A DNA stretch of 64,000 nt, from positions 62,001-126,000 of the forward strand of contig CACWZA010000005.1 of the NCBI GenBank assembly GCA_902765215.1, written 5' to 3'. The first letter of the stretch is position 1. Each line of letters starts with the position of its first letter. The notes beneath the pieces were generated by a model. That model worked only from the letters and a program-made list of their open reading frames with translations. It ran no database searches and had not been told where the DNA came from. Both the position numbers and the translations under genes were made by a program. Origin of the DNA: an uncultured bacterium. Its GTDB lineage: Bacteria; Cyanobacteriota; Vampirovibrionia; Gastranaerophilales; Gastranaerophilaceae. This document shows, in pieces, positions 5,405-46,121 of this stretch.

Positions 5405-5443
5405 AAAACGGCGGGGCTGAATTTCACCCCCGCCGTTTTTTTT
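5405..5443 (+). terminator. Intrinsic terminator of nifJ
   Basis: The stem AACGGCGGGG/CCCCGCCGTT is followed by a long T run, 23 nt after the nifJ stop codon. Confidence 0.9.
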
Positions 5444-5464
5444 ATTTATATTCGGCGGTAACGG
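5441..5464. repeat. Direct repeat copy of the tRNA-Glu 3' end (distal copy)
   Basis: These 24 bp match 5571-5594 with one mismatch. Bases 5451-5464 (TTCGGCGGTAACGG) equal the reverse complement of the tRNA-Glu 3' end (acceptor strand plus start of the T stem) and its immediate flank. The copy bounds the structured element at 5465-5570 on the side away from the tRNA. Confidence 0.85.
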
Positions 5465-5570
5465 ACTCTGCCGAACAAAACAATTAAGTATTGTTTTGTG
5501 AGAGGTAAGAACCCGCGAGATTTTTTGCAAAAAAATCGAGGGGTTCAATTCCCGAGCAACCCCTCAATGA
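5465..5570. other. Structured element inserted between tRNA-Glu 3'-end repeats
   Basis: This is a short element of about 106 bp. It starts with ACTCTGCCGAA, then a perfect 9-bp hairpin CAAAACAAT-TAAGT-ATTGTTTTG (5476-5498), then TGAGAGGTAAGAACCC. It continues through an A/T hairpin and an 8-bp hairpin GAGGGGTT/AACCCCTC. The head, hairpin loop and tail match the element beside tRNA-Arg (45867-45934), while the stem differs with compensation. No reading frame is apparent. It may be a small RNA, a mobile-element relic or an attachment-site structure; the transcribed strand is unknown. Confidence 0.65.
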
Positions 5571-5582
5571 TTTAATTATATT

Positions 5583-5654
5583 CGGCGGTAACGGGAATTG
5601 AACCCGTGTTTGCAGAATGAGAATCTGCCGTCCTGACCACTAGACGATACCGCT
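5583..5654 (-). tRNA. tRNA-Glu (CTC anticodon)
   Basis: The 72-nt cloverleaf reads on the minus strand. The D arm is GTCT/GGAC. The anticodon stem GCAGA/TCTGC carries loop TTCTCAT with anticodon CTC. The T arm is ACGGG-TTCAATT-CCCGT and the acceptor strand is TACCGCC with discriminator G. CCA is not encoded. Position 1 is A and position 72 is C, so the terminal pair is an A-C mismatch where G-C would be expected. The other six acceptor pairs are good. Confidence 0.9.
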
Positions 5655-5748
5655 GTGTGCCATCATTATACACCAAAAACGAAACTGCATAAATATTTTA
5701 TATCTATGCAGTAAGTTACGTTGAGTGTTAAATCTTTGTTTTAAATGT

Positions 5749-6371: not shown

Positions 6372-6733
6372 ATGAGAGTAAAACGTGGAAATGTATGTCG
6401 CAACAGACACAAAAAAATATTAAAGTTAGCTAAAGGTTAGCTAAAGGTTTTAAGGGCGCAAGAAGCAGAATATTTAAGGTTGCTAACTGTGCCGTTATGA
6501 AAGCATTAAAATATGCTTACAGAGACAGACGTACTACAAAACGTAATATGCGTCGTTTATGGATTGTAAGAATTAACGCAGCTGTTAGAGCTCAGGGTAT
6601 GAGCTACTCAAGATTCGTTAATGCTTGCAAAAAGGCAAACATCATCGTTAACAGAAAAATGTTAGCTGATTTGGCAGTAAACGATAAAGAAGCATTTGAA
6701 GTTATTGTAGAACAAGCAAAAGCTGCTTTATAA
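6372..6733 (+). CDS. rplT: 50S ribosomal protein L20, frame broken by an 11-bp tandem duplication
   Basis: L20 binds 23S rRNA early in large-subunit assembly and represses its own operon in several bacteria. Translation from ATG 6372 gives [22 protein letters not shown] and then TAG at codon 23 (6438-6440). The rest of L20 continues in another frame from 6449 ([28 protein letters not shown] and onward) to the stop at 6731-6733. The cause is a perfect tandem repeat of GTTAGCTAAAG (6425-6435 and 6436-6446). Removing 11 nt restores an ordinary L20 of 116 residues. L20 is normally indispensable, so this is a sequence or assembly error, a very recent mutation, or a recoding site: the GGT before the stop recurs 11 nt later. 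An internal start at 6497 would lack the conserved N-terminus. Confidence 0.85.
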
Positions 6734-45672: not shown

Positions 45673-45697
45673 TTTTTATTAAAAAACACGCCCAGAG
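45673..45697. repeat. Direct repeat of the tRNA-Arg 3' end (distal copy)
   Basis: 25 bp identical to 45963-45987. The last 11 (CACGCCCAGAG) are the reverse complement of the tRNA-Arg 3' end; the rest is the flank. It bounds the structured element at 45698-45855. Confidence 0.88.
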
Positions 45698-45855
45698 AAG
45701 GACTCCGTTGGCGGACAGCAAAAGGTGACTAAATGTCACGTTTTGCGTAGATATATGCTAAATCTTGCGGGAAAGAGTAAGCCAATGGAGGGGAGAACCC
45801 TTGGGTGAGAATCCTGAAAATAATAAAAGAGGCATCTCGTGATGCCTCTTTTATT
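45698..45855. other. Structured element A beside tRNA-Arg
   Basis: No reading frame. It starts GGACTC. The outer stem is CTCCGTTGGC/GCCAATGGAG and the inner hairpin is GCAAAAGGTGAC-TAAAT-GTCACGTTTTGC with one mismatch. The tail GGAGAACCCTTGGGTGAGAATCC is related to that of element B. It ends with its own terminator hairpin AAAAGAGGCATC-TCGT-GATGCCTCTTTT (45825-45852). It looks like a complete small RNA unit on the plus strand, with anti-tRNA sequence at its 5' end, but transcription is unproven. Confidence 0.6.
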
Positions 45856-45866
45856 CACGCCCAGAG
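45856..45866. repeat. Direct repeat of the tRNA-Arg 3' end (middle copy)
   Basis: CACGCCCAGAG, identical to the 3' end of tRNA-Arg in reverse complement, preceded by TTTTATT as in the other copies but without the A6 run. Confidence 0.85.
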
Positions 45867-45935
45867 ACTCTGCCGAAGAAAAAGATTGAGTATCTTTTTC
45901 TGAGAGGTAGAACCCCCGAGGGGGTGAGAATCCAA
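45867..45935. other. Structured element B beside tRNA-Arg
   Basis: Begins ACTCTGCCGAA, then the perfect 9-bp hairpin GAAAAAGAT-TGAGT-ATCTTTTTC (45878-45900), then TGAGAGGTAGAACCC and a CCCCCGAGGGGG hairpin before GTGAGAATCC. Head, loop and tail match the element beside tRNA-Glu, with compensatory changes in the stem. It is followed by a terminator hairpin at 45939-45968. Confidence 0.65.
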
Positions 45936-45938
45936 AAT

Positions 45939-45968
45939 AAAAAGACTTCTCTAAAAGAAGTCTTTTTA
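45939..45968. terminator. Terminator between element B and tRNA-Arg
   Basis: AAAAAGACTTCT-CTAA-AAGAAGTCTTTTT. Symmetric, so it can end tRNA-Arg transcription on the minus strand and any element transcript on the plus strand. Confidence 0.85.
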
Positions 45969-45976
45969 TTAAAAAA

Positions 45977-46050
45977 CACGCCCAGAGGGATTCGAACCCC
46001 CGACCTCTTGGTTCGTAGCCAAACGCTCTATCCAGCTGGGCTATGGGCGC
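45977..46050 (-). tRNA. tRNA-Arg (ACG anticodon)
   Basis: A 74-nt cloverleaf. The acceptor GCGCCCA/TGGGCGT has a G-U first pair and discriminator G. The anticodon stem TTTGG/CCAAG carries loop CTACGAA with anticodon ACG (read as ICG). The T arm is CGGGG-GTTCGAATCC. CCA is not encoded. The 3' terminal 11 bases are duplicated twice on the downstream side. Confidence 0.95.
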
Positions 46051-46121
46051 GTATTTCTTTTTGTATAACTATGTTATCAATAACATAATGTTTTTTCAAT
46101 ACCCGATTTGTAAATTAGGTA

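Follow-up and report, generated by a model that had tools for sequence, protein, structure and literature searches.

What does a short, gene-free stretch of DNA do between two copies of the end of a tRNA gene? The question is raised by the tRNA-Glu locus of a 64,000-nucleotide window (by which we mean the whole stretch of DNA analysed), where the initial annotation saw the tRNA 3′ end and its flank duplicated around a structured element, an arrangement resembling site-specific integration. The local description is exact and the finding real. Repeat search and ARAGORN place the 24-nt direct repeat, with one mismatch (23/24), at 5441-5464 and 5571-5594, 130 nt apart: the proximal copy consists of flank and the 3′ end of an intact tRNA-Glu(ctc) gene on the minus strand (5582-5655; Rfam RF00005, 61.4 bits), and the distal copy repeats both, each read on the plus strand. 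As described, the 106 bp between the copies (5465-5570) are non-coding, with no ORF of 60 aa, and they fold better than dinucleotide shuffles as DNA (z of -5.9 on the plus strand and -4.7 on the minus strand) and better than shuffles as RNA (z of -3.4 on the minus strand and -2.4 on the plus strand). The fold is mainly three hairpins, at about 5475-5499, 5519-5537 and 5538-5565. What lies beyond the initial annotation is that part of the element, the cassette F1, is dispersed through the genome, that the tRNA T-arm is present as an inverted copy, and that the tRNA-Arg locus of the window, along with most tRNA genes, shares the same layout.

Anatomy of the modules

At the Glu locus, the 13 nt of the distal copy that are identical to the tRNA (A; 5452-5464, plus strand) run directly into F1, a 41-nt hairpin cassette (ACTCTGCCGA-stem/loop-GAGAGG; 5465-5505, plus strand) recovered by genome search and covariance model and built of a lower stem CTCT/AGAG, a 5-nt bulge GCCGA and a 10-bp upper stem. 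The copied T-arm then continues (B, GAACCCG; 5509-5515, plus strand), F1 having replaced 5 nt of the tRNA. Next come a fold-back loop hairpin predicted by folding (GATTTTTT.GC.AAAAAATC; 5516-5540, plus strand) and an inverted copy of the T-arm (B′A′; 5541-5554, plus strand), whose 14 nt are 100% complementary to 5592-5605. The F1 pattern occurs twice in the 64-kb window and in none of 100 window shuffles. Nearby, at 6373-6733, an 11-bp tandem duplication (two copies of TTAGCTAAAGG near 6424-6450) seems to interrupt a frame that is probably L20 (rplT), leaving just the C-terminal 78 aa as a single ORF (6497-6733); this break is possibly an assembly error.

The second F1 copy of the window belongs to the tRNA-Arg(acg) locus (45673-46051), which has the Glu-type layout in two stacked modules, F2 outside and F1 inside, next to an intact tRNA gene on the minus strand (45976-46051; ARAGORN). 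Reading inward, the outermost copy of the tRNA-Arg 3′ end (45687-45697, plus strand) ends an identical 25-nt repeat (45673-45697 and 45963-45987), and is followed by the long F2 cassette (AAGGACTCC...GCCAATGGAGG; 45698-45793, plus strand), a fold-back reaching 45814 and a terminator-like hairpin (45822-45855, inverted repeat I5). A middle copy of the 3′ end (45856-45866, plus strand) opens the inner module, with its F1 cassette (45867-45907, plus strand), a fold-back GAACCCCC-GA-GGGGGTGAGAATCC (45910-45933) and another terminator-like hairpin adjoining the tRNA (45936-45970, inverted repeat I3), each module of the pair (45673-45976) having a hairpin of its own.

Along the direction of the cassette, the general order is A, cassette, B, loop, B′A′, spacer and intact tRNA, which again starts with A. 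Here A copies 11-21 nt from the start or the end of the tRNA, B resumes the tRNA bases after a gap of 0 to about 7 lost bases that varies between modules, and B′A′ is an inverted copy of an arm of the same tRNA; the insertion point varies as well, falling in the D-arm, anticodon stem or T-arm. A copied 5′ end goes with a module upstream, on the tRNA strand, and a copied 3′ end with a module downstream, on the opposite strand, the type to which the Glu and Arg modules of the window belong. Several unrelated cassettes share this one layout and stack in tandem, in arrays of up to five units: F1, F2 (about 95 nt; AAGGACTCC...AATGGAGG at other tRNAs of the same genome), F3 (about 130-190 nt; GTCTTGGATTTG...CAAATCCGCT, entering the T-loop with no tRNA bases lost), at least two further cassettes in the genome of the window, and additional ones, including short hairpins at single tRNAs, in G012, a genome of another genus of the same family. 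The same cassettes are found at about 20 tRNA types, and at both 5′ and 3′ ends.

Many 3′ modules have their own terminator-like hairpin, the stems differing between modules of one array. In 5′ modules, a TTGAAAACTAAATAA-like leader, read by eye, precedes each tRNA copy; the motif is boxA-like. It was also seen before tRNA copies and tRNA genes at L066, L079, L161 and other loci. In a table that detects just those copies with at least 11 exact nt, the outermost copy starts at the mature tRNA end in 42 of 48 cases (17/18 five-prime, 25/30 three-prime), and identity past the mature end is short, with medians of 4.5 nt (five-prime) and 3 nt (three-prime), though longer in some. That copies so often stop at the mature end could point to RNA or to selection.

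Distribution among tRNA genes and genomes

The frequency of such copies was measured per tRNA gene, by looking no further than 700 bp away for exact 11-mers taken from its two ends, with other tRNAs masked, and counting as outer copies a 5′-end copy upstream or a 3′-end copy downstream. Outer terminal copies accompany 25 of the 40 tRNA genes of the genome that holds the window (G000), where the controls yield 1 (5′ end downstream), 0 (3′ end upstream) and 2 (tRNA middle, either side) of 40; leaving other tRNAs unmasked gives 24/39, with controls of 1, 0 and 1. In G012 the count is 19/37 (controls 0, 1, 0). It is 3/42 in G040, of family f7 (controls 0), and 0/37 in G046, of family f3, both being other families of the same order.

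F1 itself is repeated and dispersed. With 5420-5600 as query, a BLAST-type search against its own genome (2.15 Mb in 47 contigs, 97% complete) returns many more copies of 5465-5507, and a covariance model built from 16 copies finds 28 strong matches (E below 1e-6) plus weaker, partial ones. Nineteen of the 28 lie no more than 700 bp from a tRNA gene, against an expected share of 2.7% (binomial P about 1e-23, in which neighbours within one array are not independent). Matches extend to 37 of 58 genomes (own plus 57 relatives): by table counts, family f1 has them in 32 of 34 relatives, own genome aside, all but G011 and G015, and outside f1 they occur in three genomes of family f6 and one of f7; families f2-f5 and f8 gave no match in this search. 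In a wider scan of named genomes, among the loci listed (at least 80), the model scores 62 of 80. Most of the listed F1 loci come from records under the names Candidatus Gastranaerophilales, Melainabacteria, Cyanobacteria or uncultured bacterium, which suggests that the window comes from the order Gastranaerophilales; L144 and L152 carry the label Heliobacteriaceae, and L147 that of Muribaculaceae, record labels that may be wrong. A phage origin of F1 was considered and rejected: 109 stretches of viral contigs fit a loose F1 pattern with no convincing copy, and among the 80 of these 109 that were listed and scored with the model, 3 reach E 0.01, the top one at 36.7 bits.

Proximity to tRNAs is strong and not exclusive. 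Of 184 F1 copies, 101 are tRNA-linked and 83 lie away from tRNAs, many of the latter at contig ends or on short loci, and F1 is also located inside hairpins other than tRNAs. In 96 of the 101 tRNA-linked copies (79 on the same strand, 17 on the opposite strand), the intact tRNA lies 3′ of the cassette, and five break this orientation rule. The ends of contigs C38, C21, C19, C32, C15, C16 and C5 of G000 coincide with longer F1-containing repeats, and such repeats seem to break assemblies.

DNA hairpins, RNA signals and the question of a mover

Does F1 act as DNA or as RNA? The upper stem has 10 pairs, and every one of them shows changes on both sides among 39 distinct F1 sequences (covariation score 0.472, versus 0.137 shuffled and 0.030-0.128 slid). 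The F1 core is invariant at positions without pairing. G-T combinations account for 5 of 549 standard pairs in 57 F1 cores of one length, versus 37 of 514 in tRNA acceptor stems (74 tRNAs from the own and a related genome; Fisher P 5e-8); when all 125 cores of any length are paired end to end without bulges, the count is 24/1220. An RNA structure would tolerate G-U, and a DNA palindrome that is needed on both strands, or copied from one arm to the other, would not. In some F1 stems (CGACGAG...GAGGAGAGG), a tandem G-A/A-G mismatch stands in place of two pairs, at the same position. The scarcity of G-U in the covariation favours a DNA-level element, as do the change of strand from 5′ to 3′ modules and the presence of F1 in hairpins that are not tRNAs; judged by sequence, F1 is more likely a mobile DNA hairpin than an RNA gene. 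The stable RNA gene that the initial annotation offered as its alternative is made less likely by the change of strand and the few G-U pairs. Rfam 15, searched with the whole window and, at a loose threshold, with 11 loci, returns nothing but tRNA and RNase P at gathering score, and a known structured RNA family was rejected as the identity of the modules.

RNA might still enter in another way, if modules were cis-acting leaders and trailers in which the inverted tRNA piece and the decoy end tune folding, processing or termination, an explanation that we consider unlikely. It would account for the position of 5′ modules between promoter-like sequence and tRNA, with the boxA-like motif before each tRNA copy, for the good folding of module units and for the segment complementary to its own tRNA that every module contains (15 nt, for example, at Arg(ccg) in G012). 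It sits poorly with an F1 that shares the strand of the tRNA in 5′ modules and lies opposite it in 3′ modules, with stem covariation almost devoid of G-U pairs, with identical cassettes in hairpins that are not tRNAs, with closely related families that have no modules at all, and with the silence of Rfam. Given upstream transcript position, folding and complementarity to the tRNA, a regulatory role of the modules is possible.

Comparison of relatives bears on whether the modules were inserted. In G005, of the same genus, the order PFOR, tRNA-Glu, L35 is kept on one contig, and the 700 bp beside the syntenic tRNA-Glu hold no module; the intergenic sequence differs from that of the window, the exact pre-insertion sequence not being preserved. 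The tRNA-Glu of G006, at a contig end, has a window-like F1 module (GAGAGGGAAGAACCCGCGAG...CGAGGGGTTCAATTTCCG) and then two 261-bp modules with an F3-like cassette adjoining the tRNA, a locus compared by module and tRNA alone. For tRNA-Arg(acg), the two modules of G000 are matched in G001 by sequence resembling the fold-back of the F2 module, and by no terminal copy in the 260 nt inspected in G002, G003 and G004, where gene order was checked for some. Relatives thus include both an empty tRNA-Glu site and a filled one, rather than filled sites throughout, and the insertion that the initial annotation envisaged at the tRNA 3′ end is supported. Its classical, site-specific form is not supported, in view of the lack of an integrase in or linked to the module, the use of about 20 tRNA types, both ends and varied insertion points, and the copies in non-tRNA hairpins.

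Close to that earlier view is the proposal that modules are tiny integrative elements accreting at tRNA attachment sites through a site-specific recombinase supplied in trans. The preference of outermost copies for the mature end, the entry of F3 into the T-loop without base loss, and tandem accretion with another cassette type adjoining the tRNA in G006 are as this would predict; we nevertheless hold it to be distinctly improbable, as insertion points differ between tRNAs and between cassettes, both tRNA ends are used, one cassette serves about 20 tRNA types yet each module carries its own tRNA's end, and the 20 kb lying past the tRNA-Leu modules showed no sign of an integrase.

The search for the machinery covered several candidates. 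With no ORF of 60 aa, the 106-bp Glu module contains no integrase, and none was recognised among the ORFs read across C33:14-46 kb. Modules derived from tRNA-Leu(gag) were observed beside the tRNA-Leu gene itself and again some 23 kb off (L404 4530-7630, equal to G000 C33:18.5-21.6 kb; L405 5720-6140). Between them lies a two-partner-secretion pair, identified by reading, whose secreted protein has 5158 aa. The large element between the gene and the distant fragments on C33, read as a possible source of an integrase, was rejected as such, holding just the secretion pair and other genes. The sole Y1 gene of the own genome, on C30, is a RAYT (NCBIfam REP_Tyr_transpos) amid GTAG-type REPs of its own, and the F1 start motif was not found near it with up to 2 mismatches allowed. 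This RAYT (L029 1270-2060) is flanked by repeats GTAGTAGGGTGCGA..TCGCACC. Y1 is matched in 21 of 58 genomes, incomplete assemblies among them, and RAYT/Y1 was rejected as mover for want of a match in the F1-bearing G006, G016, G020, G021, G027 and G039, also incomplete. Reverse transcriptase (RVT_1 in 20/58 genomes) and IS110 (7/58) were rejected likewise, the former lacking a match in G012 and G027, which have the most F1 matches, and the latter in G000, G012 and G027, all as incomplete assemblies; G027, in its incomplete assembly, has 42 F1 matches and no match to Y1, reverse transcriptase or IS110. Reverse transcription primed by tRNA, to which the resemblance of A to a primer-binding site at 3′ ends had pointed, was set aside, since it is the 5′ end of the tRNA that 5′ modules copy. 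Within 1-2 kb of tRNA-Asp lie genes for reverse transcriptases of about 290 aa (G000 C1:102088; G005 C71:5951), and this tRNA-Asp is flanked by modules on either side.

The mover may be a host activity of replication or repair. A separate reading would make the modules purely host-made quasi-palindromes, born of stalled replication, template switching and fold-backs at tRNA genes with no mobile cassette at all. The inverted piece of the neighbouring tRNA arm in every module, and the Val(tac), Arg(ccg) and Asp modules of G012 that have no recognised family cassette, are consistent with such an origin. It is rendered very unlikely by the recurrence of the same cassettes across many tRNAs and many species, by an F1 core that is invariant where unpaired, and by family f3, which has the same kind of tRNAs and no modules.

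We lean, by a modest degree, toward the element being one module of a lineage-specific class of DNA cassettes, non-coding and hairpin-forming, that occupy tRNA gene ends. It is from the DNA-level signature, the dispersal and the presence or absence in relatives that we infer their mobility. The cassettes would move as DNA hairpins: copying would enter a tRNA arm, the D-arm from the 5′ side or the T-arm from the 3′ side, insert the hairpin, fold back on the tRNA arm and re-enter the template upstream, making the tRNA end again. Events that rebuild the tRNA would be the only survivors, and the intact tRNA would stand on the cassette's 3′ side for that reason. Arrays would grow at the tRNA and through recombination between A repeats, the enzyme acting in trans or being a host replication or repair activity. 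Several points count against mobile cassettes: the enzyme was not identified and transposition was not observed in this analysis; copies away from tRNAs mean that tRNA ends are not the sole home; the variable insertion point and number of bases lost (0 to about 7) are unusual for one enzyme; and the copies that stop at the mature tRNA end, like the five exceptions to the orientation rule, weigh on the same side. More tentatively, and with the balance somewhat against it, the modules may represent a new class of element, in which fold-back copying reads a tRNA arm as a DNA hairpin, grows arrays on both ends, restores the tRNA end at every round and lets several unrelated hairpins spread by one shared machinery. 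Were this so, an array could be read as a dated record of such events, with tRNA genes serving as platform for a system that captures DNA hairpins.

Significance and relation to known systems

Transfer RNA genes are the classic landing sites of large elements that bring an integrase of their own. In the genome studied here, over half of the tRNA genes bear stacks of gene-free hairpin modules that repeatedly copy a piece of the tRNA. If mobile, these modules imply a route of transposition or repair that exploits hairpins within tRNA genes and operates at either end, and the contrast between neighbouring families (25/40 and 19/37 versus 0/37) then provides a direct way toward finding the machinery; if regulatory, they would offer a new way of controlling tRNA transcripts. 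In practical terms, the modules account for breaks in the assemblies of these genomes and for mistaken calls of repeats or tRNA pseudogenes.

Known integrative elements that target tRNA genes form accretion arrays, leave direct repeats of the tRNA end and restore the tRNA. The modules resemble them in being flanked by tRNA-end repeats, in the restored tRNA and in tandem stacking. They differ in being 80-260 bp long and gene-free, in using both tRNA ends and many tRNAs without a single fixed crossover point or target, and in the inverted tRNA piece inside. MITEs and the palindromic elements of Rickettsia are short, non-coding, hairpin-forming and dispersed, as are the modules, which nonetheless seem to lack the pairing of a constant inverted repeat at the termini and a short target duplication, and have local tRNA sequence as flanks: the ends of F1 pair just as CTCT/AGAG, the flanking repeats are 11-60 nt and tRNA-derived, and no parent element was found. 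Integron cassette arrays, and attC clusters without an integrase, are folded hairpin sites that grow at one fixed end. By description the modules are alike in this, except that their fixed end is a tRNA gene and that they hold no cassette genes.

REP and REPIN sequences are associated with RAYT, an IS200/IS605-like Y1 protein, and CGTC-tagged REPs occur without a known transposase (PMC3733652). F1 is similar in its 20-40 nt range, palindromic form, dispersal and high copy number, and in a mover that would act in trans or, as with the CGTC-tagged REPs, is not known. It is unlike the REP/RAYT pair in having neither a GTAG tag nor a flanking or linked RAYT, in its abundance in genomes without Y1, and, compared with REPs and REPINs, in being organised as modules and arrays at tRNA ends. 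In mitochondria, repetitive elements that form hairpins invade intergenic DNA and lie beside or within one another (PMC2800124); the modules are similar hairpin repeats, nested or adjacent and intergenic, and are distinguished by being built on tRNA ends with a fold-back of the target. The open-access literature (PMC) yielded no description of tRNA-end hairpin modules, and the layout itself matches no known kind testable here. Because the mobile step is one that we infer, we group the modules with the short palindromic mobile repeats.
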